Shown piece by piece: positions 13,951-56,400 of a stretch of DNA of 64,000 nt. The position numbers and the translations under genes are program-made. Under the pieces are notes generated by a model. It did no database searches and was not told the DNA's origin. It saw nothing but the letters and a program-made list of their open reading frames with translations. Source of the DNA: a virus; the IMG/VR virus record IMGVR_UViG_3300040786_000030, positions 124,001 through 188,000 of that record; one strand, given 5' to 3'. Position 1 is the first letter of the stretch, and each line of letters starts with the position of its first letter.

Positions 13951-14018
13951 ACTACTTAGAATTATAATAAAATGTTGTTACTTTTATAAAATAATCGTAT
14001 GTTTGCAATAAAAAACAT

Positions 14019-14797
14019 ATGAGTAAAGCAAAACTATGGGTTGGTCCAGTTTATTTAGAACCAATAGCACATAAATATATACATAGAGAAACGAATAAGA
14101 AATATTCATCTGTTACTACAACTCTTTCTTCAATCGAACCACATTTTGACGTGGAAGGTGTATCAGCTGCTATCGTAAAACAACAGGATAGTGCAAAACA
14201 AGAAAGATATATTGACTAACACAAATGCAGATAATAGATTATTGGCAAATGCTTAACGATGAGGCAAATGTTTATGGTACCATGGTACATGATATAGTAG
14301 AAAGATATTTATTGGCTGATAAGTGGTATTTCCCACCTGATACTGAAGAAGGAAAATTTGAACAAAAGTAATTGATGGGTATAATAGCCTTGAAATTGAT
14401 GAAGGTATAGCTGTTTGGCCAGAACGTATACCATTTGCTGAGCAATATGAATTAGCTGGTATGTCAGATTTAATTATCGATATTGATGATGTATATTTTG
14501 ATGTTTTGGACCATAAACCAATAGAGTATTTAATTTTATAACCCATTTGGTAATGAAACTTTATATAAACCGTTTGACCATTTGCAAGCATGTCAATGGT
14601 CTATTTATACATTACAATTAAGTGTTTATGCTTATATGTATGAATTAGAATTCCTAAACGTAAATGTCGTCAAATAGTGGTATTATATTGGGATAAAACT
14701 AAAGATACTTTTGAGAAGATACATATTATGTTCCTCAAGCACGAAGCAAAAAAAATTAATTGAATTACATCATTATAACCTTATGAAAAATGGTTAA
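14019..14797 (+). CDS. PD-(D/E)XK nuclease of the RecB/Cas4-like type
   Basis: Reconstructed across frame changes near 14215, 14370, 14530 and 14660. Motifs in order: GTMVHDIVERYL (His motif), LAGMSDLIIDIDD (Asp), VLDHKTN (DxK), and HLQACQWSIYTLQLSVYAY (Gln-Leu-Tyr motif of RecB-family nucleases). It probably degrades or trims DNA during replication. The last codons (FLKHEAKK...HHYNLMKNG, stop at 14795-14797) are duplicated 1.5 kb downstream, where the ancestral ending MKNK survives. The copy attached to the gene uses different synonymous codons (TTC CTC AAG CAC for Phe Leu Lys His). Confidence 0.75.
14741..14791 (+). repeat. Left copy of a direct repeat flanking the HNH cassette
   Basis: About 49 bases from GAAGCAAAAAAA to CCTTATGAAAAAT recur at 16291-16340, differing only in the length of an A run. 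The repeat is the 3' end of the nuclease coding sequence. Confidence 0.9.
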
Positions 14798-15445
14798 AAA
14801 AATCTTTTGATATCTCGATTAAAATAAGAACATAATGGTTGGAGATTACTGAAGTGATTTAATTTCAGTAACTCTTCTTCTGTTATTGCTGATGAACTAG
14901 GTATTATGTGGTCAATATCCCAACCATATTCTGGTGTACCGTTGTATAAACCATAATTATCCCATATCATCCACGGTTAAAACCTTGATTCAAGGTATTT
15001 TCTAAATTCTTTAATACTGCAACTTAATATTTTATTTGTTGTGTTATTTTTATCAAAACCATTTCGTTTAATAGAGTTTCTTATTAAACATCTAATATAT
15101 TTGATAATTTAAAAAGAAAATCGGTTTTACTACGTTCTTTAATATATTCGTTATAGTAATTAGGTCTTTTTTTCTAACTATCTTTTTTAGTTTCTTTAAC
15201 TTTATTTGGATTATTTTTAAACCACTCTTTTAGAATTTTGTTAGTTTCTAAATTATTTTTAACCCACTCTTTTTACGAATAATTTCTTTTTCTGATTTAG
15301 CTAAATCTTTTAAAATAATTTGGGTTGTTCTTAACCCAATTTGATTGTAATTTTTTATTTTTTCTTTATTTTTTTCTCTGTATTCCTTATTATATAAACG
15401 TTTGGCTTCTTTACGTTCTTCTTCGGTTAAATATTTTTTATTCAT
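14794..15445 (-). CDS. HNH homing-type endonuclease (minus strand)
   Basis: Starts MNKKYLTEEERKEAKRLYNK at 15445. After frame changes near 15265, 15173, 15090 and 14975 it ends with a clear HNH core: EYGWDIDHIIPSSSA, then LNHFSNLQPLCSYFNRD. The DH, the second H and the N are the expected metal and catalytic residues. Its stop overlaps the convergent stop of the nuclease gene. Together with the upstream minus-strand ATPase it forms an insertion bounded by a direct repeat, so a homing role is likely. Confidence 0.8.
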
Positions 15446-16202
15446 TTGTATCTTTATTTATTAATGTTCTTAAGTATTCAGATAATGATAAATCTAAAAT
15501 TAATAATTTTTTCGTTAAATTAATATATAATTCATCATTTACTCTAAAACTTAACAAATGGTCTTTATTTAATTTTATTTCTGGTGAGTCCTCCAAATCC
15601 ATCTCAATTTTAAATGTTTCAGAATCCACAATGAGTTTATATTCTTCATATTTTTAATGTTTTCTTCATCTATACTCCAGTGTAAATTATTTTAATAAAA
15701 TTATTTTCATTATCGTTAAATAAATTATTAAAAATGAACTCCCTTTTGTTAGAAGATGCTATGATTAATTTAGAGTTAAATTGACTACTTAATACTGGTA
15801 TGGTATATGATATTATATCATCTAAACGATTAATAAACATGCATTATCGATAATGACATGTGTAATTGCAACCTCTTAAACCATCTAAAGTTGAAGCTAT
15901 TTTATTAAATTACCATTTTCTAATTGTAATGTAGAAACAGTATCTTTTATTTTTTTAAATCTGATATTCTACCATCAAGTCTAATTTTATTTAATAGATG
16001 TTTAGCTGAGGCTAATTTTTCTGTGAATAAAATAATTGTGTTATTACTAGTATTATTTTGTTCTAATAAAGTTTCTATGATAAATTCTGCTAAAACAGTT
16101 GAAACACCCATCTGTCTAGAGTGTTTTATAAGTGAAAATTTATTAGTATGTAAAGATTCTAATAGTGTTGTTTGATAATTTTAATTTCATTGTAATACAT
16201 TT
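15438..16202 (-). CDS. Terminase-like ATPase fragment with C-terminal ribbon-helix-helix-like segment (minus strand)
   Basis: Begins MYYNEIKIIKQ at 16202. The stretch KHSRQMGVSTVLAEFIIETL matches the deviant Walker A region of phage large terminases (RQxGxST). The family-typical FTEKLASAKHLLNKIR and a possible Walker B (VIIDNA) follow. There is no nuclease domain; instead the C-terminus (LLSFRVNDELY...LDLSLSEYLRTLINK) looks like a ribbon-helix-helix DNA-binding unit. Frame changes lie near 16165, 15955, 15905, 15865, 15840, 15680 and 15655. The stop overlaps the ATG of the HNH gene, so the two are a coupled pair. Confidence 0.55.
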
Positions 16203-16238
16203 TAAAAATTTGTTATACAAATAAATATGTGTAAAATC

Positions 16239-16269
16239 TTGTAAAGACCAAAATTATTTGGTATATTTG
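16239..16269 (+). promoter_or_regulatory. Host-like promoter (TTG, 19-20 bases, TATATTTG)
   Basis: TTG at 16239 and TATATTTG at 16262-16269 lie upstream of the gene-end remnant and the ClpP gene. Confidence 0.55.
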
Positions 16270-16280
16270 TATTTCGATAG

Positions 16281-16346
16281 TTTTTAAAACATGAAGCAAA
16301 AAAATTAATTGAATTACATCATTATAACCTTATGAAAAATAAATAA
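16281..16346 (+). pseudogene. 3' remnant of the RecB-type nuclease gene (right copy of the direct repeat)
   Basis: Encodes FLKHEAKKLIELHHYNLMKN then Lys and TAA at 16344-16346, in one intact frame. It matches the nuclease C-terminus at 14729-14797. The first codons differ synonymously from the upstream copy (TTT TTA AAA CAT here) and use the AT-rich codons typical of this genome. It is probably the original gene end, cut off by the HNH cassette. Confidence 0.8.
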
Positions 16347-16905
16347 ATGGATATAGATTTTAAATTAGAAGATAGAAATATTTTTCTATCGGAACAAATA
16401 ACTCAAGAGTCGGTTAAGTCTGTAATCGAAAAATAATTTTAATAAATGAATCAGATAAAGAATTAACTAAAAAAAGCTAAAAGATTTGGGTTTAAATATA
16501 AAAGTAGTCCAATTGTAATCTACATTGACTCATATGGTGGAAGTGTTTACCAATGTCTTGGGTTAATATCGGTAATGATGAATTCTAAAACTAAAATACA
16601 TACAATTTGTTGGTGTAGCTATGAGTGCTGGGTTTATGATATTAATTTCTGGACATAAAAGATTTTCATATAAACATTCAACACTATTGTATCATCAAGC
16701 TAGTAGTTTTAGTAGTGGTGAACTTAAAAAGATAGAGGAAGATGTTGAAGAAATGAAGATTACAAACACTATTAGAAATAATAGTGTTAAGTAGAACAAA
16801 TATAACTAAAGCTAGATTAACTAGAGTCTATGTTGAGAAAATAGATTGGTTTATTAGTGCGGATGAAGGTTAGAGTATAAAATAATTAATAAAATTTTAG
16901 GGTAA
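16347..16905 (+). CDS. ClpP-family protease, first paralogue
   Basis: Serine protease of the ClpP/crotonase fold. Visible are the glycine-rich strand (IYIDSYGGSVYQCLGLI), the nucleophile region VAMSAGFMI (Ser), YHQAS (His) and the C-terminal EKIDWFISADEA (Asp) followed by YKIINKILG. The full triad is present. Frame changes lie near 16430, 16475, 16607, 16785 and 16868. Its stop overlaps the next ATG (TAATG at 16903-16907). A second ClpP is encoded at 40433. With a host unfoldase it could degrade tagged or misfolded proteins, or it could process virion proteins. Confidence 0.75.
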
Positions 16906-17857
16906 TGGTAAAAAAATAGTACATCTTGCAGATATTCACATTAGAACAATGAGAATGCATTCTGAATATTTAGATAGTTTTAAAAGTTTAATGGTAGATT
17001 TAAGAGAACTTTAAAAGATTATGAGAGAGAAGAAATTAGATTGTTGTTGCTGGTGATTTGGTTCATCAGAAGATAATTGTATCTAATGAACAAATAATGT
17101 TGGGTGCTTGGTTCTTAAGGAAATTAGAGGAAATTGCACCAGTTGTTCTTATTGCTGGTAATCATGATTTATTAGAAAACAATAAAGACCGTATGGATTC
17201 ATTGACACCAATGGTCCAATTTTTACCAGATAAAGAGATTAATTATTTTAAAGAGTCTAAGTGTTATTTAGATAATAATATAGTATGGTGTGTTTATTCT
17301 ATTTTTGAGGAAAACGCTAAACCAGATATTGAATCTGCTAGAGTACAATTTGGTGATGATAAAACATATATTGGATTATATCATGCAGCACTACTTAACG
17401 CTAAAACCGATATTGGTTATGAAATAGACCATGGTGCTGGGTTAGAGATTTTGATGGTTGTGATATTGCTATGTTGGGTGATATTCATAAAAGACAATCA
17501 TTCAACCATAAAGGTATTATAATCGCCTACCCAAGTTCACTAATACAACAAAACTTTGGTGAAAATATCAGTGGGCATGGTTTTTATTGTGGATGTTGAG
17601 CAAAAAATTTTACTGAGCATGATGTTGAAAATAAAACACCATACTACCAATTTAAGATAAAATCAATTGATGATATTGAAACTGGTTCTGAAAAATTAAC
17701 AAATGGGTAGATATATTAAACAACCAAAATATTTTTATTTCATTTATGGTGAATTAGGTTATTTTGGCCCTTACTTAAAAAACCAGATGGTTATACTAAT
17801 ATTAAAAAATTTAAATTAGTTGAAATAGTTGATGAAAATAAAATAATAGAAAAATAA
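16905..17857 (+). CDS. SbcD/Mre11-like nuclease subunit (T4 gp47 type)
   Basis: Calcineurin-like metallophosphoesterase. Motifs in order: LADIHIR (DxH), VVAGDLVH (GDxxH), VVLIAGNHDLLE (GNHD), YHAAL and MLGDIHKRQ (GDxH). These are the metal ligands of Mre11/SbcD. It pairs with the SbcC-like ATPase two genes downstream to process DNA ends in recombination-dependent replication. Frame changes occur near 17012, 17040, 17447, 17595, 17700 and 17775. Confidence 0.85.
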
Positions 17858-43480: not shown

Positions 43481-43481
43481 A

Positions 43482-43553
43482 GCGGAATAGAGCAGTAGGT
43501 CAGCTCGCAAGGCTCATAACCTTGAGGTCGTAGGTTCGAATCCTTCTTCCGCA
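43482..43553 (+). tRNA. tRNA with CAT anticodon (Met or Ile2)
   Basis: Acceptor GCGGAA/TTCCGC, D-arm GAGC/GCTC, anticodon arm CAAGG-CTCATAA-CCTTG, T-loop TTCGAAT. One weak T-stem pair. Confidence 0.85.
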
Positions 43554-43580
43554 ACAACGTTGGAGAACATAAACTCATAT

Positions 43581-43647
43581 GGGGAAGTCGTCTAAGATTA
43601 AGAACCACCATTAGGTGGTGATAATGGTTCAAGTCCATTCTTCCTTA
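43581..43647 (+). tRNA. tRNA, anticodon unresolved
   Basis: Acceptor GGGGAAG/CTTCCTT and T-arm with TTCAAGT. The anticodon arm (ACCACCATTAGGTGGT) has too short a loop, so bases are missing. Confidence 0.65.
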
Positions 43648-43654
43648 CTAAATT

Positions 43655-43725
43655 GCGAGGTAGAGCAGTAGGTAGCTCAACAGGCTCATAACCTGAAGGT
43701 CGGTGGTTCGAGTCCATCCTTCGCT
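43655..43725 (+). tRNA. tRNA with CAT anticodon (Met or Ile2)
   Basis: Acceptor GCGAG/TTCGC, anticodon loop CTCATAA, T-loop TTCGAGT. Sequence is related to the CAT tRNA 170 bases upstream. Confidence 0.82.
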
Positions 43726-43800
43726 ACAAAAGAATAGTTACAGCAAATAAACAAAACTTTAAATCTTAATTAAACTAAAAACATACTATTCTGAAACACA

Positions 43801-43827
43801 AATCCTCACTCAAAAGTGGGGATTTTT
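43801..43827 (+). terminator. Rho-independent terminator
   Basis: AATCCTCACT-CAAA-AGTGGGGATTTTTA. Confidence 0.8.
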
Positions 43828-43857
43828 ATAATAATAAAGACTAAAACAAGTAAAAAA

Positions 43858-44535
43858 TGAAAACAATTCATTTAGAAATCAGAGATGGTAACGGTGGGTC
43901 CGATGCAAAGCTATTAGTAACACAAATGCAAGACATTTACACTAAAACAGCTAAAATTAACAATCTAGAATGTTCAATAGTTGACGTTAGAGATGGTTTT
44001 GTTCATCTATGTCTTTAGCGGTTCTGACCCAAAAAAATATTTAATAATGAACAAGGTGTGCATTCTTGGCATCGAGTCCCACCAACAGAAAAAAAAAGGT
44101 AGAGTTCATACAAGCTCCATAACAGTTGTTATTTTAGAAGATAATAACTATAAAGAGAAAAACCTTTCAACTAATGAAGTTAAAATCGAAACAACTAGAG
44201 GTCAAGGTCCAGGTGGTCAGCATCGGAATACCACAGATTCAACGGTTGTAATAACTCATGAATCCACAGGTATCAAAGTTGTTAGGAATGGAAGATGTCA
44301 ACATAAGAACAAAGCTGAGGCTTTAATTGAATTAACCAAAAGAGTTAATGAATTTTATAGATGTGGACATAATTCTATCGACATTGAACATCGAAGAGGT
44401 CAGATAGGTAATGGTGAAAGAAGTGATAAACGAAGAACATATCGTGTAAAAGATAATTCAGTCAGTGACCATATAACAAACAAAACAGCGTCACTAAAAG
44501 ATATACTTAGAGGTAAAATAGAATTATTATCATAA
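43858..44535 (+). CDS. RF1-type peptide chain release factor lacking domain 1
   Basis: About 226 residues. Domain 2 and 4 start at the N-terminus (EIRDGNGGSDAKLLVTQM). The stop-codon tripeptide region reads HRVPPTEKKGRVHTS, i.e. a PxT-type (RF1) motif, predicting UAA/UAG reading. The catalytic loop is RGQGPGGQHRNTTDSTV (GGQ), followed by domain 3 (RSDKRRTYRVKDNSVSDHIT). Only the N-terminal domain 1 of RF1 is missing. Such short factors (like RF-H) can act on stalled or damaged ribosomes. Frame changes near 44012 and 44045. Between tRNA clusters. Confidence 0.9.
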
Positions 44536-44537
44536 TT

Positions 44538-44562
44538 AAATTCCCCAATTGGGGAATTTTTT
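44538..44562 (+). terminator. Rho-independent terminator
   Basis: AAATTCCCC-AATT-GGGGAATTTTTT. Confidence 0.85.
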
Positions 44563-44596
44563 ATTTAAAAAGTTAGAATATTTAAATAAATAAATG

Positions 44597-44604
44597 TATC
44601 TTTG
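44597..44604 (+). promoter_or_regulatory. Host-like promoter -7 box TATCTTTG
   Basis: 25 bases before the ATG at 44629, after a terminator. Confidence 0.55.
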
Positions 44605-44628
44605 CTTTATGATAAATATGTTATAGAT

Positions 44629-44994
44629 ATGGGTATGTTTGATTTTTTAATAAATAGTAATAAAAAGCTAAGGTTGGTATAGAATATATCTATCTATCAA
44701 ATACAGCTTGGGTAGGTGGACTGAAAACCAGTCAAATATGGGTCAATTATGGTAGATGTTATTAAACTACCTAATGATTCTTTTGAGTTTACCGATAAAT
44801 TGAGTGGAATTAGATATACAACTAATTATGGGTGGTCTTTAGCTGAAAACACACCAGAGAATATAATGAGTATTAATGATTATTTAGTATCTAATGCTAA
44901 ATTAGAAATATTAGAAAGAAGTACAAGATTATTACGTAAGAAAATAAATGACTTAAATGGTCCTAGTAAAATAAATAATAACGATTTAAAATAG
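44629..44994 (+). CDS. Hypothetical protein ending in an amber codon
   Basis: MGMFDFLINSNKK, then after frame changes near 44665 and 44745 KVGIEYIYLSNTAWVGG and a helical C-terminus. About 120 residues. It ends with TAG at 44992, and this frame continues in phase with the ATG of the dNMP kinase at 45001. Function unknown. Confidence 0.55.
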
Positions 44995-45000
44995 AAAAAT

Positions 45001-45512
45001 ATGAATAATAATAAATTTCCTAAATTACTCTTGGTTGGAAATATGAGACATGGGAAAGATTCAATGGCTGAAATACTAGGTGAAAATTTTGGTTTAAAAT
45101 TTAAATCGTCATCACAAGCTGCTGCTGATATTTTATATATGATAAATTGAAGGTTAAGTATGGTTATAAAACATCTGAAGAATGTTTTGAAGACCGAGTA
45201 AACCATAGAAGTGAATGGTATGATATGATATGTGAATATAATTTAAATGATAAGGCTAAATTAGCTAAGGGTATTTTAGAAATCACTGATTGTTATGTTG
45301 GAATGAGGGATAGAAATGAAATAAGCGAGTGTATTAATCAAGGGTTATTTGATTTAATTGTTTGGGTCGATGCTAGTGATAGATTACCGTTAGAGGATAG
45401 TTCATCGTTTAATATTGATAAAGCATGTGCTGATGTTATATTAGATAATAATGGTACTTATGAACAATTTGTTGAGCGTGTTATTAGGTTTGGTAAAGTT
45501 TTAATAAAATAA
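45001..45512 (+). CDS. Deoxynucleoside monophosphate kinase (T4 gp1-like)
   Basis: A P-loop LLLVGNMRHGKDSMAEIL near the N-terminus is followed by KLKVKYGYKTSEECFEDRVN and HRSEWYDMICEYN, the pattern of phage dNMP kinases. LIVWVDASDRLP and the acidic SSSFNI segment follow. It would convert dNMPs to dNDPs for phage DNA synthesis. About 170 residues, one frame change near 45140. Six bases after the amber stop of the preceding gene, in the same frame. Confidence 0.75.
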
Positions 45513-45514
45513 TT

Positions 45515-45915
45515 ATGGCATATATAAGTAATGTTGAATACGAAAATATAAAAATGGTGCTATGGATGGTACCAAGGAAAACCCAGTTATTGGGAGATTT
45601 GATAAAACTATAAATTAGCTCTATATTTAGGTTACAAATTAAAATGGGATTATGATTATAGTTATAATAATTCAATTAATGGTTATTTTCATGTAATAGA
45701 ACCAATGTTTAAAAAAATCATATAATAGGTTTGACTTTGAATACGTGTCTGATGATACAATTAATTATACTTGGGATTTCATCATGGTAGAGGTTCTGCC
45801 TAAAATTAAAGAAGATGGTCTTTACGATGATACTATGAGTAAATCGTTAAATGATTTAGATTTAGTATCTCTATTTAATGCTATTATGGTAGTTATAAAT
45901 AAAAAATATATTTAA
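45515..45915 (+). CDS. Hypothetical protein of about 130 residues
   Basis: MAYISNVEYE..., then GYKLKWDYDYSYNNSINGYF and an acidic C-terminal helix (DLDLVSLFNAIMVVINKKYI). Frame changes near 45550, 45615 and 45715. No known motif. Confidence 0.5.
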
Positions 45916-45921
45916 TATTTA

Positions 45922-45952
45922 CTTGTATATTTAAAATATAGTTGTATATTTG
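45922..45952 (+). promoter_or_regulatory. Host-like promoter upstream of a tRNA pair
   Basis: TTG near 45923 and TATATTTG at 45945-45952; the tRNAs begin about 130 bases downstream. Confidence 0.6.
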
Positions 45953-46080
45953 CACAAGATAAATGAGGTGGTAACTTTTACTAGGATAAAAATCGTTGAA
46001 GCTAATAAGACAATTAGGTTGGTAAACAATACGTTGGGAGCTAATAGTTGAGAAAATAAAGCGGTAATAAATAACCAAAT

Positions 46081-46152
46081 GGTCTATTGGTCGAGTGGTA
46101 AGATAGTAGTCTCTAAAACTAAAGATGGTGGGTTCGAGCCCCACATAGACTA
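46081..46152 (+). tRNA. Trp-like tRNA with CTA anticodon, candidate amber suppressor
   Basis: Acceptor GGTCTAT/ATAGACT, D-arm GTC/GAT with GGTAA loop, anticodon loop CTCTAAA (anticodon CTA) on a four- to five-pair stem, variable AGATG, T-arm GTGGG-TTCGAGC-CCCAC. Layout matches the Trp tRNA at 55147, whose loop is CTCCAAA. A C-to-T read error could explain it. Confidence 0.7.
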
Positions 46153-46164
46153 CAAAAAATAAGA

Positions 46165-46236
46165 TTCCGTGTTGTGGGTAACGGCAACTTAACCTCGAAA
46201 GCAGGGGTGATTCTGGTTCGAATCCAGAGCACGGTA
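46165..46236 (+). tRNA. tRNA, anticodon unresolved
   Basis: Acceptor CCGTG/CACGG, D-arm GTTG/CAAC with GG in the loop, T-arm TCTGG-TTCGAAT-CCAGA. The anticodon arm (CCTCGAAAGCAGG) does not place a T at position 33, so an indel is likely. Confidence 0.65.
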
Positions 46237-46299
46237 CAAATTAACTTGACTTTTAATTAAATGTCATATATTTATTATTAACAAACAAAACAATAAAAA

Positions 46300-46648
46300 A
46301 TGAAGTAGGTAAACGAAAAATTAAGGGTAGTTACAAGACGAGATTTAAATCTTGCACATCAAGCAGTTCAATCTGGACATGCAGCTATTGATTTTCAACA
46401 TGAACACTTAGTTGAAGCAAAACAATGGCAAACACAATCAAATTATTTAGCATTTTTAACGGTAAACGATGAACCAGAATTAATTAAATTAATTTCTAAG
46501 GCAATACTAATTGGTATAAAGCACACTATTTTTTAGAGAACCAGATATAGGTAATCAAATAACAGCTGTAGCGTTTGAACCAAGTGATTTATCTAGGAAA
46601 TTAACTAGTTCATGTAGTTTATTAGGGAAGGAGTTATCCAATGCTTAA
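46300..46648 (+). CDS. Peptidyl-tRNA hydrolase 2 (Pth2) family
   Basis: LRVVTRRDLNLAHQAVQSGH then AAIDFQ is the Pth2 N-terminal signature (R-D-L, G-x-xAxQ-xxHA-like). It is followed by LAFLTVNDEPELIKLIS and AVAFEPSDLSRKLTSSCSLL near the end. It releases peptides from peptidyl-tRNA that drops off ribosomes. About 112 residues, usual for Pth2. The literal sequence has an in-frame TAG at codon 3 (ATG AAG TAG), either suppressed by the CTA tRNA just upstream or an indel artefact. Frame changes near 46503 and 46530. Confidence 0.8.
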
Positions 46649-46900
46649 TATATCAATACAAAAGAACTGATATTATTTTACACTTTAATAAAATGCATTT
46701 ACAAGATGCTAACATCCCAATGTGGGTAATTAAAGCTAAGGTCAGACATATTATGTAAATCATGTTGATATGGATTCTGGAATTGGTTTTCAACAAAAGA
46801 AACACCAGATAATCCATCAACAAAGGGTTCATTAAAATTTAAAGGTAAGTTAGATATAACTGATGAAAATAATACCGTAAACGCAAGGATTTACGGTTAA
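46641..46900 (+). CDS. Small hypothetical protein overlapping pth2
   Basis: Overlaps the Pth2 stop (ATGCTTAA). After frame changes near 46668, 46740 and 46785 it reads DIILHFNKMHLQDANIPMWV, GQTYYVNHVDMDSGIGF and KGSLKFKGKLDITDENN. About 86 residues. Function unknown, but coupled to Pth2. Confidence 0.5.
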
Positions 46901-46905
46901 AACAA

Positions 46906-46974
46906 GGCGAGGTAATCAAATGGTAGGTACAGTTTTGAAAGACTGGTATGTTGGTTCGAATCCAGCCCTCGCCT
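46906..46974 (+). tRNA. tRNA, probably Phe (GAA)
   Basis: Acceptor GGCGAGG/CCTCGCC, T-loop TTCGAAT. The anticodon arm CAGT-TTTGAAAG-ACTG has one base too many; dropping a T gives loop TTGAAAG (GAA). No long variable arm, so Ser (TGA) is unlikely. Confidence 0.75.
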
Positions 46975-47109
46975 CTGATAATAATAATAATAATTTAAAA
47001 AATAGAAACTATGAAATAGATACGAAAACCACCTTAAGTTTTATTACTTTACATGACTCGGATATTCAGTTATCAATAAAATAAAATTATAAAACTTAAA
47101 AAAAACAAA
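46975..47109 (+). other. Intergenic stretch without a convincing gene
   Basis: AT-rich spacer. It holds only a very short frame beginning ATGAAATAG at about 47011, too poor to call. Confidence 0.4.
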
Positions 47110-47479
47110 ATGAAAACACAAGAACAAAAAATGAAAGAAGCAAAAATTATCTTACTACGTCAGCACAACATTTATTTATCGTTAATGATAAATTTATTTT
47201 AAACTTATAGAATTTGAAGTAGATGGTAAATTACATTATGCTAAATTAATGGTTAACCCACAAAGTGTGACAATTACAAATATTGTTACGACTTGGTATA
47301 AGCAGAGTTATAAACAAGATTTGTTTCCACAATATTTAAAAAAAAATCGATACCTCATTTTAAAAAAAATGAAAGAAATTATAGAATTAGTTAAACGTGA
47401 TATTAGTTTAACTGATAATAAAGTTTTAATTGAAAAGATTAAATTATTAGCCAACAAATTTGAAATTGTAAAACAATAA
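47110..47479 (+). CDS. Basic hypothetical protein
   Basis: MKTQEQKMKEAK..., frame changes near 47145 and 47200, then KLIEFEVDGKLHYAKLMVNP and a Lys/Ile-rich helical C-terminus ending ANKFEIVKQ. About 122 residues. No known family. A terminator follows. Confidence 0.5.
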
Positions 47480-47490
47480 AATAATAAATT

Positions 47491-47513
47491 AAAGGACCTT
47501 ATGGTCCTTTTTT
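47491..47513 (+). terminator. Rho-independent terminator
   Basis: AAAGGACC-TTAT-GGTCCTTTTTT. Confidence 0.85.
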
Positions 47514-47544
47514 ATTTATCTGTATAATTATAAATAAAAATAAG

Positions 47545-48011
47545 ATGAAAAATTTAATCAAATTTATATTATCATTGTTTAAGGTTAATAAAAAATTACC
47601 TACGAAAACTTATACAATTAAATCACGTAACCCTGATGTATTTGAGAGTAAGGTTTTAGCTTTAATAAATGAATATAGAAAACCTATTAATCTTCCTGAA
47701 TTGAGATGAATAAAATTGTTTGTAATGTATGTTTTAAGAACAATGAGAGGATGATTTTAACGAATAACTTTTCGCATGATGGTGCGGTAGAAAGATTTAA
47801 TGAAGTCATGGCAATTTGTGACAGTTATTATGCTGCTGAAAATTTAGCAAAAAAATTATAATACAGCTGAATCGGTGGTAAATGCTTGGATAAAAAGTGA
47901 TACACATAGGAAAAATTTAGAATGTGCTAAATGTAATAGTTTTGGTATATCAGTTACAAAGATAGTTCCAATATCAATTATTATACAACAATGTTTACTA
48001 TAATTGATTAA
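47545..48011 (+). CDS. CAP/SCP-like superfamily protein
   Basis: A hydrophobic N-terminus (MKNLIKFILSLFKV) is followed by a CAP fold pattern. ALINEYR comes first, then after frame changes NNFSHDGAVERFNEVMAICD, AAENLA, and NTAESVVNAWIKSDTHRKNL with FGIS behind it. SHDG, AENLA and W..S..HRKNL are the conserved CAP positions. Bacterial CAP proteins are usually secreted; function in phages is unknown. Frame changes near 47690, 47710, 47857 and 47960. Confidence 0.7.
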
Positions 48012-48052
48012 ACCATTCGTTTACAATTATTAAATTTGAACTACATTAATTA

Positions 48053-48077
48053 AATGGGCCTATTATGGGCCTTTTTT
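48053..48077 (+). terminator. Rho-independent terminator
   Basis: ATGGGCC-TATT-ATGGGCCTTTTTT; imperfect loop, clear GGGCC/GGCCT stem with T run. Confidence 0.6.
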
Positions 48078-48088
48078 ATTTATATCGA

Positions 48089-48098
48089 TATTTATAAT
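48089..48098 (+). promoter_or_regulatory. Late-type promoter box TATTTATAAT
   Basis: One base before the ATG at 48100, after a terminator; a leaderless or read-in arrangement. Confidence 0.5.
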
Positions 48099-48099
48099 T

Positions 48100-49169
48100 A
48101 TGAAATTGTTAATTAAAAAATTACTTAGAGAAAACATACAGTTAGCTGATAAACTTTATTTTAATCAAAATAAATTATCACCACAAGCTAGAGAGCTTAT
48201 CCTTAGAATAACTAATGGTGACCCCTATACTAAACTAATAACTGATATGTACTATTATCAATTATTTAAAAGTCATAAAATGGATAGTTCTGCTATGGCT
48301 GGTGCTGACCCAAATTATAAAGAAAGTGAAACTCCTGAATCTGATATTTTAGCTATGCAAGATATGAAAGATATTAAAGGTTTATATAATATATTAAAAC
48401 ATATAACAAAAATATTTTCCCAATAAAGAGTTTCAATATCAATGGTGTTGATGACATTGGTACTTTTATGCGCACATTGAAAAATAGAGAAAAGATAATA
48501 CAAACTTTAAATAGTTTACCATCAATAGCTATTAGGAATATGAAAAATGATATTCGACAAGAAAGAGATTTTAGCGAAACTAAAGATTATATGCAAGAAC
48601 TAGACTATTTTCAAGGGTTATTTAGTCAATTGGGTAATAGAGATGTTGAATTAAGAAAAAATATTGAAAAGAAAATGTTTAGGTCTAATATTACGTTAGA
48701 AGATTTATTAGATTTTGCACAAGAAAAGGAAAACTTATTAGGTGGTGTAGAATTCACAAAGCAAAAGATAATCGAAATTGTTAAAGAAGAAAATAATGAA
48801 TACGATGAACTTAAAATAAAATTTAATAAGGGTGATGTTATGGTGATAGAAGTATCTGGACCTAACGGAATAAAAAAAATTGGATGTAATTCATTGTGGT
48901 GTTTTACATATGGTAGAAATGGGGCGATGAATTATAATGACTGGTATAATTATTCTACAAATGACTTAGTATATGTTATAATTGATTTTAAAGAACCAAC
49001 TGATTCGCCAGACTTTATGCACGTTCTAATTAAACCTTTAATGGTTGATTACTCGGTTGTTGGTAGTGATGGTGACGATGTTTTATTTAATATGGCAAAT
49101 AGTGGTGAGGAAGAACCTAATTCCATAATTCAACATTATTTTGACTTTGATTTCGCTAAAGACTTATGA
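48100..49169 (+). CDS. Hypothetical protein with MKxxIxxLLRE leader
   Basis: Starts MKLLIKKLLRENIQLADKLY, one frame change near 48405, then about 350 residues in total to DFDFAKDL. The C-terminal half (IKKIGCNSLWCFTYGRNGAM ... YVIIDFKEPTDSPDFMHVLI) looks like a compact alpha/beta domain of unknown type. The N-terminal leader recurs in several other genes of this window. Likely a virion or packaged protein by analogy only. Confidence 0.6.
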
Positions 49170-49760
49170 ATTTTGGTGTCAAAACCAGAGAGAACCCCAA
49201 AACCTAAAAAAAATAGAACAGACCCAAATCAATTATCGATTGACTTTAACCAACCAGCTGAAATAAACGAATATGATGATGAAGAAGATGACTACGAAGA
49301 TGACGAAGATGAATATTATTATGGTGATGAAGAACAATATTTTAAACCTAAATTAGATGCTGATGTTAAAGCAAATAGTTCTAGATATGAAGGTAGAAAC
49401 GTTGTTTGGTATGGTTCTATTGGTAATATGATTGTTTTAACTAGAGATGAAGTAGATGGTATGACTGGTAATATCTACGATGAGGAAAAATTAGCTTATT
49501 TAACCAAACTAATACGTGATTACCCTGAAAAGGTTGAGTTAGAATGTTCTTACGCTCACGGTCATGTTATTAATCTTATAGATATTAAAGAAGAATTAGA
49601 ATCATTTTATAATGATAGATTTGTTGTTGAATACGATGGGCATGAAGAACCCAACCGTACTGGTGATGAAGAACTTGATGAATATATTGGTAAAGACCTT
49701 GATAATAATTATTGGTATAATTTAGATTATGATAATGATAATATTGAACCATTTTTTTGA
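49167..49760 (+). CDS. Acidic hypothetical protein
   Basis: Probably begins at the ATG at 49167 overlapping the previous TGA, with one frame change before VSKPERTPKPKK. It has a Lys/Pro-rich start, a run of Asp/Glu/Tyr (about residues 33-55), then a folded-looking domain ending NDNIEPFF. About 197 residues. Function unknown. Confidence 0.6.
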
Positions 49761-50054
49761 AAAATAGAACAAGTGTCGCTCAAGGTAAAAGTGTAGATGA
49801 ATTAACATTAGAGTTTAAACAATTAAACCCAACAGAAAATGAAATCGATACCTTTAAAGAATTTATTAATATGGAGAACAAATTAAAAGATGCTCAAGCT
49901 AATGATGAGGGTGATTTTAATAAATTTAAAGTACAATTAGAGATGGTCACCATAGAGTATTCGCAGCCTTAATTCAGGTGAAAGATATGTTTGTGTTGAT
50001 TTAGTTGATGATGGTATTAAAAAATATAAAGGGTATTATAATTTAGTTAAATAA
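49757..50054 (+). CDS. Small hypothetical protein
   Basis: A TTG start overlaps the upstream TGA. KNRTSVAQGKSVDELTLEFK, mostly helical, with a frame change near 49958, then ALNSGERYVCVDLVDDGIKK. Ends where the next gene begins (TAATG). Confidence 0.5.
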
Positions 50055-51477
50055 TGGAAAATTTTATAAAAAAATTACTAAGAGAGTCTTTGATTAATGA
50101 AGGTGTAAGTGATATTACATATCATTTTACTAACACCTATAAACTTGATGAGATTCTAAAACAAATAAGATTAATTTATCAGCAGCTTTTGGTTCACCTT
50201 CTGATAATGAGATAAATAAAAATAAATTATTTTTCTTATCTACTACTAGTTCAAGAAATTCTGATATTGGATACGCTGCCTCATTACCTAAAGATAATAT
50301 GGTTAGAATAACCTTAAATGGAAGGTTATTAAACCAGAATAACAAATCTACTAGGGTTGACTATTGGCAAAGACCTAAAGACCCTAGAAACAAGCTCTAT
50401 AACCCAAATGATGTGCCTACAACTGGTAAAGACTTCTATAAAAAGTATCTAGACAAGATGAATTAGAAGATAGGTTTATTAGTGATAAAATGAGATTAAA
50501 CCAGCTAATAAATATATAATATCTATTGAAATTTTAGTGATAATAATATGGGTAAGTTGAAATATTTAAGTGATAATCTAAACATACCATTTTCGTTTAT
50601 GATAATATAAATTATTTTAATGGTTCAGTTAAGAATAAAGCTATTGAAGTTGCTTCTGATAGTATACCTAATGATGTTGAAAAACGTAGAGGTTATCTTG
50701 ATACTAATATTATTGCATATTTAGTTTTAGAGATGATAAATTAAGAGCTAAAATATTTAATGATATACAAGCTTTGATATTGATATTGATTGGGTTAAAA
50801 ATAAGGTTGATGATAAATGATAAATTAAATTATTATTTACGAAATGGAAGTGAATTTTATATAAATGATTTTGCGAGCAGTATGAGTGCTGATGTACATA
50901 ATATGAGGTCGAGTTCAAATGAATTTGATAGATACCTAATAAAAGAATTGGGTATGGATATGAAAAGGAATAATGTAAACTCAATCAAGGGTTATTTAAA
51001 TTATAAAGTTTGAAGGGTAAAAAACTCAAAATGATTATAATAAAGAGCTAAACCAAAAATTTATGAACTTTATTGAAGATAATTTTAAAGAACAAATTAG
51101 CAACTATACAAATTACTCTTTTGATGCTGATGGTGTTGAATATGAAAATATTTTAGATTATAAACCAATTATGGATTTATTTAATAACTTTTAATAAAAC
51201 TAAAAAAATATGTTTCAGATTATATGTTAACTAATGATGATATGTATAGATTAAAATATGTTTTAGATAGCTCACATATTAAAGAAACTGTAAATATAAG
51301 CAAACCTGAAATCAATAGTATACTAGATAATATTGATTTTATGGTAGTAAATTTACTGCCGATGATGTTAAAGCTATATTATATTATATTGTAAGTGATT
51401 TTAGTAATTATGCATATGATGAACTAGAACAAGCTAAAAAGAATTTAATGAACAATTCACATAAAATATTTGTTTAA
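50054..51477 (+). CDS. Large hypothetical protein, weak ADP-ribosyltransferase-like N-terminus (frameshifted)
   Basis: Starts MENFIKKLLRESLINEGVSD, sharing the LLRE leader. Next come DITYHFTNTYKLDEILKTNK, INLSAAFGSPSD and KLFFLSTTSSRNSDIGYAAS. YHFT...L..IL and FLSTTxSR remind me of phage ADP-ribosyltransferase-like proteins, but I see no complete catalytic set. The rest, to 51477, is helical and broken by about ten frame changes, so domain limits are unclear. About 470 residues if one gene. Confidence 0.4.
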
Positions 51478-51492
51478 TCAATAATTTAGTAA

Positions 51493-51500
51493 TATCTTTG
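51493..51500 (+). promoter_or_regulatory. Host-like promoter -7 box TATCTTTG
   Basis: Four bases before the ATG of the CCA-adding enzyme, predicting a leaderless transcript. Confidence 0.6.
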
Positions 51501-51504
51501 TTGC

Positions 51505-52694
51505 ATGAAAAATAAGATAGAACAAATATTAGGTGAAGGATTAGTTATTGGTAAACGAATTAAATTTGATTTATCAATACCTGAAGATATTAGTGAGTTA
51601 AACCATATCTTTAAAAGAAATGGTTTTGAACTATTTATTGTTGGTGGTGCTATACGTGATGCTTTATTAGGTAAATCACCAAAAGATTACGATTTAGCTA
51701 CCAATGCTTTACCTGACAAGGTTGAAGAAATGATGAATACAAACAACATTAGAACTATAGCTACTGGTAAAGCATTTGGTGTTATTAATGTATTTACCAA
51801 CCAAGGGGAATACGAAATAGCAACCTTTAGACATGATATTGGCTCTGATGGTAGAAGACCAGATAGTGTTAAATTTACTAATATTGAAGGGATGTTAAAA
51901 GACGGACCTCACTATCAATGCACTTTTACGATATTGAGAAAGGTGAGATTGTTGACCTTGTTGGTGGTATTAATGATATTAAAATGGTGTTGTTAGAACG
52001 GTTGGTTTAGCTGAAGATAGATTTGGTGAAGATAGACTTCGTATTCTTAGAGCAATTAGATTTGCTGCTAGGTTTGGAAGTGAATTAGAGACAAAACTGA
52101 TATAGCGTTACAAAAAAATGCAAATCTTGAAGGTATTTCCAGTGAACGTATTAGAGATGAATTCATCAAGGGTATTAAATCGGCTAAATCAACATCAGCT
52201 TTTTTAATGTTGAATGATAAATACGAATTGTTTGATTGGATATTCCCAGACTTAAAATTGTCAAGAGTATGTTTAATAGAGGTGATGATTATATGTTTAA
52301 TGATTACTTAGTTGTTTTAGCTAGGTTATTAAAAAACAATACCGTTGAAACTATTAGAGAAAAACTAAATATTTTAAGTTATTCTACTACAGAAATTAAA
52401 GGTATTATATTCTTAGTTACGTTATTAAAATTAGATTCTGATAATGCGTATTCCTGAAAAATCCCATTTAAAATCTGGTATTAGTAATAACCAAATTAGA
52501 GATTTTGGTTCAAGTGAAGGTATTCCATCTCAATTGCTAGATGCTTTTGAGGAATTTACATTAACAGTTTCTGGGTCAGAAATTATGTTTGATTTTAATT
52601 TAAAGCCTGGTAAAATGTGGGTGAATTGATGCAAAAAATAGAAACAGAAAACTTTAACAAAATATTAAAACCTTATCTAGTAAACTCTAAATAA
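51505..52694 (+). CDS. cca: CCA tRNA nucleotidyltransferase / poly(A) polymerase family
   Basis: Class II nucleotidyltransferase. FELFIVGGAIRDALLGKSPK and DYDLATNALPDKV carry the GG and DxD motifs. TIATGKAFGVINVF and YEIATFRHD follow, then, after a frame change, RFGEDRLRILRAIRFAARFG (the ERxxRxxR-like nucleotide-binding segment). About 395 residues. It adds or repairs the CCA end of tRNAs, and none of the 20 tRNA genes here clearly encodes CCA. N-terminal MKNKIEQILGE resembles the leader on other proteins. Frame changes near 51900, 51935, 51990, 52098, 52252, 52445 and 52618. Confidence 0.9.
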
Positions 52695-52737
52695 GGTTTA
52701 TTTTAATTAGAAAATAGTTATAATTATAAAAAAACAA

Positions 52738-53086
52738 ATGGCAAAATACTTAGCAACATTTAGTGATGTAATCGATGAAACCGAAATTAATGGTTTTACT
52801 ATTATGTCTGATAAAGAAATCGAGAAATTAGAAGAACTAGCATCAAGTATCACTTGGGCAATCTATTACAAATTTGATAATGGTAGTGAATTAGAATATT
52901 CTGATGGTGAAGATTTAATATCACGAATTGAGTTTAAATTACTATCAGCAAGTGATGTTGAAACAATTGGTAAATTATTTAATGATAGTTTTGGGGTTTT
53001 ATTGGGATGGATTTTTATTAAGTATTATTAACGATGTTGATGATGAAGAAGATATCGAAGACGATGACGAAGACGATGAGTATTAA
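52738..53086 (+). CDS. Hypothetical protein with acidic tail
   Basis: MAKYLATFSDVIDETEINGF..., one or two frame changes near 53000, ending in an Asp/Glu run (DDEEDIEDDDEDDEY). About 115 residues. Overlaps the next gene's ATG by 11 bases. Function unknown. Confidence 0.55.
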
Positions 53087-53519
53087 TTTCTTTAAACAAC
53101 CGACTGGTAATACTTGGTCCAACATGTTTAAAAATGGCGCAATCAACTATACTAGGTTTAACGGATTCTAACTTTCCAACTATAGATGAAATTGCTATAA
53201 TTTGTGGTACTGACTGGTTTGTAGGTACACCACCAGATAGAATGAAAAGGTATGGAAGCATTAAAAATGGTGTATACTGAACATATTGGCTCTAGATACC
53301 CATTTTATTATTAAATAGTGTTATAAATGATGGTAATATAGCTATTATTAGAACAATAAGCACTGGTGTTCCACATTGATAATCCCAGTTAGTTATGTAG
53401 ATAATATTTATAATATTAATGACCCATGGTTAGGTAGAATACAATACAGTATAGAGGAATTAAAAGTAATTTGGGGTATAAGAGATTATCAATTTTTGAA
53501 ATTAAAACAATGGAGATAA
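53076..53519 (+). CDS. Hypothetical protein of about 148 residues
   Basis: MSINFFKQPTGNTWSNMFKN, then after frame changes DEIAIICGTDWFVGTPPDRM and TEHIGSRYPFLLLNSVINDG. No known motif. Its 3' end overlaps the next gene. Frame changes near 53155, 53240, 53300 and 53380. Confidence 0.45.
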
Positions 53520-53964
53520 AATAGGGGTTCCAATAGAAAAAAGAGTTGAATTTGCTAACTGGGCATACCCTCATTTTAAACATGTTATTGGTAAAACAAT
53601 CTTTGATTTAGTAATTAATGATAGCGTAGATTTTCGAAAATCAGCATATATTATACAAGATGATACACTTTTAGGTCTTTATCTATTAGGCCCTACCCAA
53701 ATCTATAACCCAATCTTTAGTAAATTATTAGGGATTGAAGGTGTGTTATTAGCTGTAGATGAGTCGATTAGAGGTATGGGTTGGGGTAATAAATTAAAGA
53801 TTACCCAAAACACTTAACGTTGATTATATTTGGGGTTACCAAGCTGCTGGGTTAAATAATATAGAATATTGGTTAAAACGTAGGGTTTTAGTTAATAAAG
53901 AAAATAATTGTTACGTTACTTGTGAGATTTTGCTGATGACGTGATATTTATTAATAAAAACTAA
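53510..53964 (+). CDS. GNAT-like acetyltransferase (tentative)
   Basis: MEIK, then after a frame change GVPIEKRVEFANWAYPHFKH. GVLLAVDESIRGMGWGNKL has the RGxGxG-type acetyl-CoA loop of GNAT motif A, followed by YQAAGLNNIEYWLKRR as a motif-B-like helix. The substrate is unknown. Stop overlaps the next ATG (CTAATG). Frame changes near 53523, 53800 and 53930. Confidence 0.5.
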
Positions 53965-54437
53965 TGAGAAGATTTGATAAACAAAAAAATATCGCTGCTG
54001 CTAATTTATTATCAGAGCAAAGACACTTAACAGATAGAGACTCTGTAACTGAAGATTGGAAAACAAATGTAGCTGCTGGTTTAGCAACTATTGGTGGTGT
54101 GGCTGGAGCTAACGCTCAAACAAATAAACCAATGGCACCACAACAAGGTAAAGAGATTCAATATTCACCAAGTGAAAACCCACTTCAAATATGGCTAACC
54201 CATATGGTACAAAGGATGATTCAACTATTCACCCAAGAACAATACCAATCGTTGGTATACAATCAGGTGTGACTGATGGTAAGAGTGGACAATCAGCTGT
54301 TTATGTTTATCATAATCATTTACCAAGTGACCCTAATTTTAATGTTAAAAGAGATAGGAAACAGTTTATACTAAAATTTATCTGACTTATATAAAACACA
54401 AGAATATCAAGAATATAAAAGAAGTCTTAATAAATAG
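53964..54437 (+). CDS. Hypothetical protein, possibly exported or virion-associated
   Basis: MRRFDKQKNIAAANLLSEQR..., a hydrophobic AAGLATIGGVAGANAQ segment, then after frame changes near 54187 and 54383 STIHPRTIPIVGIQSGVTDG and HLPSDPNFNVKRDRKQFILK. About 158 residues. Function unknown. Confidence 0.5.
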
Positions 54438-54491
54438 TAGTAATCTAATAATCAAGTAATTACAAAATAAAATAAAAATAATTGTAAAAGA

Positions 54492-54523
54492 CTTGCTTTA
54501 TCTAAATAACCTTAGTATATTTG
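54492..54523 (+). promoter_or_regulatory. Host-like promoter (TTGCTTT, about 18 bases, TATATTTG)
   Basis: TTG at 54493 and TATATTTG at 54516-54523, heading a short transcript before the main tRNA cluster. Confidence 0.6.
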
Positions 54524-54604
54524 CATAAGAATTAAAACAAACAAAATAGTCTTTTATAAAAGACATATATTTATAACAAATGGAGAAATCAAAAATAAAA
54601 AAAA

Positions 54605-54703
54605 ATGAACACAATTAACATACATATGATATCGATTAGCAATTGGAGACGTAATAGTCATCTAATGTCGGGTATGTTAAATACTGGTGGTACTGAAGTA
54701 TAA
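54605..54703 (+). CDS. 32-residue peptide gene
   Basis: MNTINIHMISISNWRRNSHL to GGTEV. It sits alone between a promoter and a strong terminator, so the short transcript may be a leader peptide or a small RNA. Reality of the peptide is uncertain. Confidence 0.35.
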   Translation: MNTINIHMISISNWRRNSHLMSGMLNTGGTEV

Positions 54704-54727
54704 ATTTTAGAACACTTATAACAATAT

Positions 54728-54760
54728 AACCCGACTAGAGAAATCTAAGTCGGGTTTTTA
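54728..54760 (+). terminator. Rho-independent terminator
   Basis: AACCCGACT ... AGTCGGGTTTTTAATTT. Confidence 0.9.
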
Positions 54761-54773
54761 ATTTAATTAAGTT

Positions 54774-54943
54774 ATGGAACATGTAAGAAGATTAGGTAGA
54801 GAGAAAACTATAAATTTTAAAAAAGATTTTTATTTAATAGTTGATAAGTACAGACTGATTGCAAATGCAAGTGGTTATAATGGAGAATTAAGATTTCAAA
54901 AGAAGGTGGATTTACAGCTATTTTCGTTGAAATTAAAAATAAT
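54774..54943 (+). CDS. Small hypothetical protein before the tRNA cluster
   Basis: MEHVRRLGREKTINFKKDFY..., with a probable frame change near 54903 (EGGFTAIFVEIK), ending just before the tRNA-Ser. About 55 residues. No known motif. Confidence 0.45.
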
Positions 54944-55028
54944 GGAGAGGCAAGCCAATAGGTGGTTGCCACAGTTTTGAAAACTGTTCGGAGACAATGG
55001 CTCGTGGGTTCGACTCCCATCCTCCGCA
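54944..55028 (+). tRNA. tRNA-Ser (TGA)
   Basis: Anticodon arm ACAGT-TTTGAAA-ACTGT, long variable arm, T-arm GTGGG-TTCGACT-CCCAT. Acceptor pairing is imperfect, probably an indel. Confidence 0.82.
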
Positions 55029-55033
55029 AACAT

Positions 55034-55109
55034 GGTGATTGTAGCTCAGTTGGTTAGAGCGTTGGACTGTGAATCCAAAGGTCATGGGTTCGAACCCCAT
55101 TTTTCACCC
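55034..55109 (+). tRNA. tRNA-His (GTG)
   Basis: Anticodon loop CTGTGAA; a G(-1) opposite C73 as expected for His; T-loop TTCGAAC. Confidence 0.92.
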
Positions 55110-55146
55110 AAAAGTTGTTCGTTGACATATCGGTAAATATAAATAC

Positions 55147-55217
55147 ACGTCTATAGTGCAATGGTAGAATACGGGTCTCCAAAACCCTAGATGTAGGTTC
55201 GAGTCCTACTAGACGTG
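55147..55217 (+). tRNA. tRNA-Trp (CCA)
   Basis: Acceptor ACGTCTA/TAGACGT with G73, anticodon loop CTCCAAA, variable AGATG, T-loop TTCGAGT. Confidence 0.92.
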
Positions 55218-55227
55218 CAAAATAAAA

Positions 55228-55299
55228 GATTTGGTAACTCAGAGGCAGAGTGGCTGTTTGTTAGGCAGCGGGTCGAGATTTCGAAATTCTCCCAAATCG
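55228..55299 (+). tRNA. tRNA-Asn (GTT), first copy
   Basis: Acceptor GATTTGG/CCAAATC, anticodon arm GCTGT-TTGTTAG-GCAGC, G73, T-loop TTCGAAA. Confidence 0.88.
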
Positions 55300-55306
55300 C
55301 AAAAAT

Positions 55307-55380
55307 TCTTCAATAGCTCAGTTGGTTAGAGCAACGCACTGTTAATGCGTGGGTCCTAGGTTCGAGTCCTAGTTGGAGAG
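55307..55380 (+). tRNA. tRNA-Asn (GTT), second copy
   Basis: Acceptor TCTTCAA/TTGGAGA, anticodon arm CGCA-CTGTTAA-TGCG, G73. Sequence differs strongly from the first Asn tRNA. Confidence 0.9.
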
Positions 55381-55421
55381 CAAAATAAGTGAAAATAAAT
55401 TAGGTATATATGTAAAAGTTA

Positions 55422-55429
55422 TATCTTTG
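55422..55429 (+). promoter_or_regulatory. Host-like promoter -7 box TATCTTTG inside the tRNA cluster
   Basis: Followed by a GTGGTG ... CACCAC hairpin (about 55445-55485) before the next tRNA. Confidence 0.55.
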
Positions 55430-55490
55430 CAAAGCAAACTGAGCGTGGTGCTCGTATATTATCCATGTCTAGAAATGGTACACCACTAAT

Positions 55491-55575
55491 ACTATGCTTG
55501 ACTGAGTGGCCTAAAGTGACTCCGTTAAAGGAGTGCCCTGTAAAGGGGCCGTAGGTTCGAATCCTACACATAGTC
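55491..55575 (+). tRNA. tRNA with long variable arm, probably Leu (TAA)
   Basis: Acceptor ACTATG/CATAGT. The anticodon arm CTCC-GTTAAA-GGAG lacks one loop base and would read TAA; a second hairpin (GCCC-TGTAAAG-GGGC) is then the variable arm. A Tyr (GTA) reading of the second hairpin is possible but fits worse. Confidence 0.65.
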
Positions 55576-55582
55576 TAAAAAT

Positions 55583-55668
55583 GGCGAGGTGTCAGAGTGG
55601 CCGATTGAGCTGGTCTTGAAAACCAGAGGCCGTGAAAGCGGTCCAAGGGTTCGAATCCTTTCTCGCTT
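55583..55668 (+). tRNA. tRNA-Ser (TGA), second copy
   Basis: Anticodon arm CTGGT-CTTGAAA-ACCAG, long variable arm, T-loop TTCGAAT. Confidence 0.88.
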
Positions 55669-55670
55669 CA

Positions 55671-55719
55671 GTTTAATTATCGCAGTGATTGCGGCAATTA
55701 TCACCGCAAAGTGATTAAA
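55671..55719 (+). repeat. Nested hairpin between tRNA genes
   Basis: Outer stem GTTTAAT/ATTAAAC and inner stem TTGCGG-9-CCGCAA. Confidence 0.75.
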
Positions 55720-55739
55720 CTATAAACATAGGGTAAAAT

Positions 55740-55823
55740 TCATTGGCAATCGGCTCGGAAAGCGCATCGAGAGTTAGATATACGACTTAGTATGGAAAAA
55801 GTGGTTCGAATCCACCCAATGGA
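55740..55823 (+). tRNA. tRNA-like gene, anticodon unresolved
   Basis: Acceptor CATTGG/CCAATG and T-arm GTGG-TTCGAAT-CCAC are clear. The interior is unusually long and I cannot place D and anticodon arms with confidence. Confidence 0.6.
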
Positions 55824-55863
55824 GCAAGAAAAATAAAATATTAGTAAATAAAATTAATAAATT

Positions 55864-56157
55864 ATGAGTAAACAAAATGATAAATGGCTTGCCACCTATG
55901 CACTTTATTTTAGATAGTGAAACACGTAGGATATATGAAGGAGACTTTATTCAATATTTTGGTTCAAAAGATGTTTATATGTTTAAAGCAATATATTTCC
56001 AATCAATTGTTGATATCAACCTAAAAGTACTAGAGGTTGGTGATGAAGTGTGTTATGTCTTTGGTACTGGGTTAGATAAAGGGTTATAGAAAGTATCACA
56101 CCATTTGAATTTGGTACAAGTGGACCTAGGATTAAAATTAAGGGTAAGAAAAATTAA
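55864..56157 (+). CDS. Small hypothetical protein among tRNA genes
   Basis: Starts MSK, frame change near 55875, then MINGLPPMHFILDSETRRIY and EGDFIQYF. After another change near 56090 it ends SGPRIKIKGKKN. About 97 residues, predicted beta-rich. Function unknown. Confidence 0.5.
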
Positions 56158-56193
56158 TTAACGCATTTAATATTATGAAAATATAAAAATAAA

Positions 56194-56275
56194 TTGAGAT
56201 ATATCGAGGCACGCTGATAACGTGTATATTCGTAACTGGTTATTGTAAATGTGGGTTCGAATCCATTGTCTCAAC
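56194..56275 (+). tRNA. Atypical tRNA, Ile (GAT), no D-arm before the anticodon arm
   Basis: Acceptor TTGAGAT/GTCTCAA. Only nine bases separate it from the anticodon arm CACG-CTGATAA-CGTG. A 26-base variable region (with CGTAACTGGTTATTG) and a T-arm follow. Same plan as the next gene. Confidence 0.65.
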
Positions 56276-56280
56276 TAAAT

Positions 56281-56363: not shown

Positions 56364-56392
56364 AAAAAATAGGTTATTAAAATTATTTAACT

Positions 56393-56400
56393 TATATTTG
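56393..56400 (+). promoter_or_regulatory. Host-like promoter -7 box TATATTTG
   Basis: 28 bases before the ATG at 56429. Confidence 0.5.

Follow-up and report, generated by a model that had tools for sequence, protein, structure and literature searches.

A phage HNH–ATPase cassette that probably homes by replacing the 3' end of its target gene

Why should the last codons of a phage exonuclease gene be present twice, in two spellings, on either side of a pair of genes read from the opposite strand? The question was raised by a stretch of viral DNA of 64,000 nucleotides (positions 124,001 to 188,000 of IMG/VR virus record IMGVR_UViG_3300040786_000030), called the window here; the source record measures 193 kb. 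The window has a GC content of 28.6%, and single-base indels are so abundant in it that most ORFs are broken, and single frameshifts within it therefore mean little. A separate region (43481–57933) holds 14 tRNA-like genes, with the anticodon CTA, that of an amber codon reader, at 46081–46153.

The target gene (14019–14797, plus strand) encodes a DNA-repair nuclease, a PD-(D/E)XK exonuclease, and contains several frameshifts of the sequencing type; in relatives, which are 57–89% identical, it is an intact single ORF of about 260 codons, and the copy on contig L093 matches PDDEXK_1 (E 2.8e-5) and the PHROG 298 exonuclease family (E 3e-18). Its last 20 or so codons are found both joined to the gene and as a leftover at 16281–16346 (plus strand), which is the original 3' end of the exonuclease without the remainder of the gene. 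The duplicate gene ends of about 50 bp that the first-pass annotation had placed on either side of the minus-strand pair were located as direct repeats at 14749–14798 and 16298–16347 (94% over 50 nt), and the repeat continues leftwards at 14730–14754 and 16280–16304 (80%). Directly 3' of the leftover stands a ClpP-like gene (16348–16880, plus strand) whose DNA matches a phage gene annotated as ClpP. On the uninserted contig L095 the ClpP-like gene directly follows the exonuclease gene, and the DNA identity between the window and L095 over the exonuclease end and the next gene is 71% (837 nt).

The gene-joined copy begins TTC CTC AAG CAC GAA GCA AAA and the leftover TTT TTA AAA CAT GAA GCA AAA, so that the synonymous recoding described earlier was recovered as five silent differences in the patch at 14731–14742 (plus strand). 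Both copies encode FLKHEAKKLIELHHYNLMKN; the accompanying claim that the peptide is the same holds up to the ending, where the final residue is G in the joined copy and K in the leftover. The remainder of the re-created end (14743–14797, plus strand) is leftover-like in its DNA and closes with GGT TAA as against AAA TAA; the approximately 45 bases beyond the patch are identical save for one added A in the joined copy (8 vs 7). Before the final codon, all five substitutions are silent and all fall within the first 12 bases of an alignment of about 62 (P ~1.2e-4 under random placement), and the joined tail of the window is recoded in only four codons. One of the patch codons, CTC, accounts for 1.1% of the Leu codons in the phage group of the window; the string CTC AAG CA(C/T) GAA GCA recurs on contigs L093 and L094, which carry the same cassette, and on L081 and L082.

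Between the two ends lie an HNH endonuclease gene (14794–15445, minus strand), convergent with the target and overlapping the exonuclease stop with its own (14795–14797), and an ATPase gene (15438–16190, minus strand), both of them frameshifted in the assembly. L093 carries all three genes intact (exonuclease 260 aa, HNH 222 aa, ATPase 250 aa). The HNH protein of the window, which is 79% identical to its L093 counterpart in the C-terminal half, shows an HNH motif when read from the sequence (WDIDHIIP...LNHFSNLQPLCSYFNRDIK); the Pfam HNH match is weak (E 0.04, under the cut-off), a homologue on L122 matches PHROG endonuclease VII (E 1e-10), and comparison with PDB sequences returned nothing useful. 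The ATPase, 66% identical to that of L093, matches the Terminase_6N profile (E 2.1e-6), T4 gp17 chains (E ~2e-9) and, as a structural model (pLDDT 60, pTM 0.67) searched with Foldseek, gp17 again (E 2e-7): it is gp17-like by sequence and by fold. The protein terminates past the ATPase domain in a strand–helix–helix segment. It thus shares a homologous ATPase domain with the T4 large terminase gp17, but it lacks the C-terminal nuclease domain of TerL, has a ribbon–helix–helix-like C terminus and is only about 250 aa long. The pair had been annotated as including a TerL-like ATPase with such an end; the ATPase stands, and the ribbon–helix–helix assignment is suggested by a weak NikA-like profile match in L122 (E 5e-4, below the curated cut-off) together with predicted secondary structure. 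Relatives of the ATPase were found by a single-sequence scan on the L093 and L094 contigs only; an alignment-based scan added the L122 contig and a weak match at 25%.

A scan for relatives of the exonuclease returned 54, the majority without a cassette. Contigs L091 and L092 are empty; L093 and L094, which come from two other metagenomes, carry a cassette related to that of the window in the same arrangement. The insert of L094 measures 1,560 bp and interrupts the empty-site sequence at TATCT^TAAACATG, between flanks that are almost unchanged (left 4,476 bp, 99.6% identical to L091; right 4,495 bp, 99.87%). Within the exonuclease, 0 of 240 body codons differ between L091 and L094 as against 13 of the 21 tail codons, 10 of these silently (Fisher p 6.6e-17); between L091 and L093 the body differs at 15 of 240 codons (p 1.5e-9). 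The leftover of L093 begins TTAAACATGAAGCC, exactly at the point at which L091 is interrupted, and the leftovers of L093 and L094 are identical to the end of the empty-site gene. The cassette is present or absent at an allelic site. It separates the full-length target, a chimera, from a 3' fragment that is the former end of the recipient's gene. Insertion into the gene with restoration of its ending, which had been proposed from the window alone, is in this way confirmed by a before-and-after pair: the insertion is clean, a divergent 3' end is gained and the old end is left behind. Since L093 and L094 are identical over the cassette (0 of 1,560 differences) and the new tail (100%) in spite of a 4% difference in the left flank next to it, the cassette has evidently been moved or copied recently. 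As far as sequence comparison can demonstrate them, insertion, end replacement, a stranded old end and recent spread of the cassette are established, and so is the fact that insertion within the last 20 or so exonuclease codons loses no target bases.

We consider it probable that the cassette is a homing element and that homing supplies the target gene with a substitute 3' end. Weighing against this are the recoding of no more than four codons in the window, the occurrence of CTC in some lineages without a cassette, the leftovers at a minority of the convergent HNH loci surveyed, their lack on L018 and L122, and the sub-threshold Pfam HNH match. The competing account with most to recommend it, unlikely as we judge it, is that the 3' end was never recoded for protection: the cassette would have been carried along when diverged phages recombined in the usual way, with codons that are simply those of the divergent donor allele. 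The tails of the lineages vary widely anyway, and joined tails do resemble the alleles of other lineages. Ordinary exchange is, however, at odds with the window, where every substitution ahead of the final codon sits in the 12 bases adjoining the insertion point and the joined tail otherwise equals the leftover. It also fits poorly with the 1%-usage codon CTC at this spot, which the window shares with the L093/L094 cassette and cassette-free L081, and with the stranded fragment, which demands an insertion and not a plain exchange of alleles.

Several exonuclease alleles free of the cassette bear on the same end of the gene. L081 and L082 differ from L083 at 24 of 240 body codons; at codons 240–250 they differ at 10 of 11, nine silently, after which identity with L083 resumes, and the block matches the cassette-type tail (2 of 33 bases differ from L093). 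Such a block is expected of a conversion tract or of an escape allele, and L081 and L082 are candidate resistant alleles without the element. On L109 a cassette-type tail is followed by a 27-residue HNH remnant, which marks this locus, to judge by its sequence, as a decayed element. The rare Leu codon CTC (1.1%) is also found at the insertion-point Leu of cassette-free L097, L101, L108 and L116, perhaps further escape alleles.

A transposon- or integrase-like element with the 3' end of the gene as its attachment site would account for the restored ending, the usual outcome of site-specific integration, but is highly improbable: the 1.56 kb cassette contains no integrase or transposase, and the joined end and the leftover differ in the empty/occupied pair, where attachment cores would be identical. 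An old tandem duplication, unrelated paralogous fragments or an assembly artefact might have been suspected from the many indel errors in the window and from the repeats common in these phages; such readings retain practically no credibility, as they are refuted by the comparison of L091 with L093 and L094, the arrangement recurs in separate metagenomes, and leftovers are stop-terminated C-terminal fragments upstream of the HNH start. A group I intron or intein bearing the nuclease, phage HNH genes being frequently intronic, is equally implausible, because the joined gene has its own stop, the cassette is antisense and Rfam gave no match, hence no group I intron RNA, at 14000–17000 of the window.

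The layout was also surveyed at other gene ends. Among 76 distinct genes of the HNH family with sufficient flank, 43 are convergent with the neighbouring gene, and a C-terminal fragment of that neighbour was detected upstream of the HNH gene at 7 of these 43 distinct convergent loci, an exonuclease case (L003) included; the loci were chosen for holding this HNH or this target and are not a random sample. Control genes not adjoining such an HNH gave a match of some sort 25 times out of 979, for the most part with tandem paralogues, tail proteins among them (Fisher p 2e-4, to be taken as a guide since the survey criteria differ slightly). The remaining convergent loci may have lost the leftover or may not move in this way. 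The leftovers are C-terminal fragments that reach the stop. They lie upstream of the HNH gene, 40–123 bp from its start, and some 830 bp away where the ATPase gene is present. By profile, the targets comprise a primase, a RuvC-like resolvase, a sigma factor, polynucleotide-kinase-like and protease-like genes and one unknown gene. On L013 an RNase R-like target appeared in two other searches and is absent from the 43-locus survey. Duplicated gene ends beside related nucleases are thus found for the same HNH family at several genes; L018 and L122, where the ATPase and the HNH are both present, have no detectable leftover. A search for an empty-site relative of the L068 target found none.

The RuvC-like gene of L049 is likewise a chimera with its former end beside it. 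Its body is closest to L087 (89%) and its leftover is 88% identical to the same contig; its joined tail is only 52% identical to L087 and 87% identical to L129. Since the tail is nearer L129 and the body and leftover are nearer L087, body and old end evidently belong together and the new end comes from elsewhere. Three of the control matches proved to be elements of another nuclease family, with GIY-YIG nucleases between a RuvC-like gene and its leftover C-terminal fragment (L099:3585-4640, L126:2660-3520 and L132:1652-2480).

Some further arrangements were recorded during the survey. At L021:5060-6020 and L043:5410-6380 the last 15 or so residues of the HNH protein (IKRNFWKSGLSNKTT) are similar to those that close the gene before it (VKRNFWSSALSNKPT); it looks as though the HNH reading frame extended into a leftover. 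Three HNH genes of the same family stand in tandem within 4 kb on L024 and L025 (2492–6357), and in isolated Flavobacterium elemo phages distantly related HNH genes are co-directional with their neighbours. The exonuclease at L132:4516-6288 is interrupted in frame, at the DWK motif, by about 330 codons that include a homing-endonuclease domain (Hom_end E 5.6e-5) and read like an intein, and an HNH gene lies directly 3' of the exonuclease gene; the exonucleases of L128, L129 and L133 are interrupted near the same residue.

Just before the leftover of the window lies an outward-facing promoter-like block, TTG-N20-TATATTTG (16239–16269, plus strand). A TTG...TA(T)nTTTG block is common to the window and L093, and it recurs on L122, at the right end of a cassette with a different insertion site. 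TAnnTTTG, a type of motif which we take to be the Bacteroidota promoter consensus, was found at most 110 nt before the leftover in six of eight elements, as compared with 10% of random positions, a generous control in that these include coding DNA.

Homing with end replacement could proceed as follows. In a co-infected cell the HNH enzyme would cleave the gene that lacks the cassette, near (C)TTAAA(A)CATGAAGC. Of the two broken ends, the left would pair with the donor gene body and the right with the donor leftover and the genes downstream; repair would copy the donor 3' end plus the cassette. The new gene would escape further cutting, as the changed bases would prevent recutting; we infer, in agreement with the first-pass annotation, that the joined end "hides the cut site". 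The outward promoter would maintain the expression of the downstream genes. The TerL-type ATPase with its ribbon–helix–helix-like end may play an accessory part, perhaps as a motor that binds DNA and loads or remodels the target, or possibly as a regulator of the pair. The "recoded" end may be a diverged donor allele that was kept since it was uncut, or it may have been changed codon by codon for protection; in the window, conversion would have returned most of the joined tail to the resident sequence, sparing the positions at which it would have restored the cut site.

The closest parallel is provided by the WHO elements of Torulaspora and Lachancea yeasts: homing gives FBA1 a new 3' end, the one that the recipient had before persists downstream as a fragment, and resistant alleles and tandem build-up are reported (PMC7282813). 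Common to both are a nuclease gene beside the 3' end of the target and a full-length target composed of the recipient body and the donor 3' end; as described there, the WHO proteins differ in being of the intein/HO type with zinc fingers, and act on FBA1 in eukaryotes (PMC7282813). The phage elements have an HNH (elsewhere a GIY-YIG) nuclease, several targets, a TerL-type ATPase in some cases, a cassette that is often convergent with the target, and an outward promoter. Membership of the WHO family was rejected, the HO/intein-type zinc-finger endonuclease being absent and HNH and TerL-type ATPase genes standing in its place; by analogy the element appears to work like WHO without being a member, its proteins, organisms and targets being unrelated. 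The free-standing T4 seg/mob homing endonucleases, in the excerpts consulted, likewise combine a nuclease gene beside a conserved gene with cutting and co-conversion in intronless homing: the recipient is cut, the donor flanks are copied and the replaced target is assumed to be resistant (PMC2988022, PMC12724721). Their insertions, as far as the same excerpts go, lie between genes or split them, whereas here a 3' end is restored and a fragment is stranded (PMC2988022, PMC12724721). In the open-licence literature searched, no description of end replacement in phages was found.

Synthetic cleave-and-rescue drives pair a nuclease with a recoded, uncuttable target and are engineered and Cas9-based; the phage element resembles them in this pairing but is natural and does not use Cas9. 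Tentatively, the elements may form an undescribed and widespread phage class of gene-end-replacing homing elements that arose separately in the HNH and GIY-YIG families, with conserved replication, repair and transcription genes as targets and with escape alleles left behind as in natural gene drives; in one branch a captured terminase motor, fused to a DNA-binding domain, would aid homing. If this is true, phages possess a natural cut-and-rescue gene drive in which the nuclease travels with the cut-proof spelling of its target. It would explain how homing genes come to lie within conserved genes with neither intron nor intein, and why the 3' ends of such genes evolve patchily. The recoded patches would indicate the bases read by the enzyme, and near-identical empty and occupied phages together with cassette-free recoded alleles would offer a simple system in which to test resistance to gene drives.
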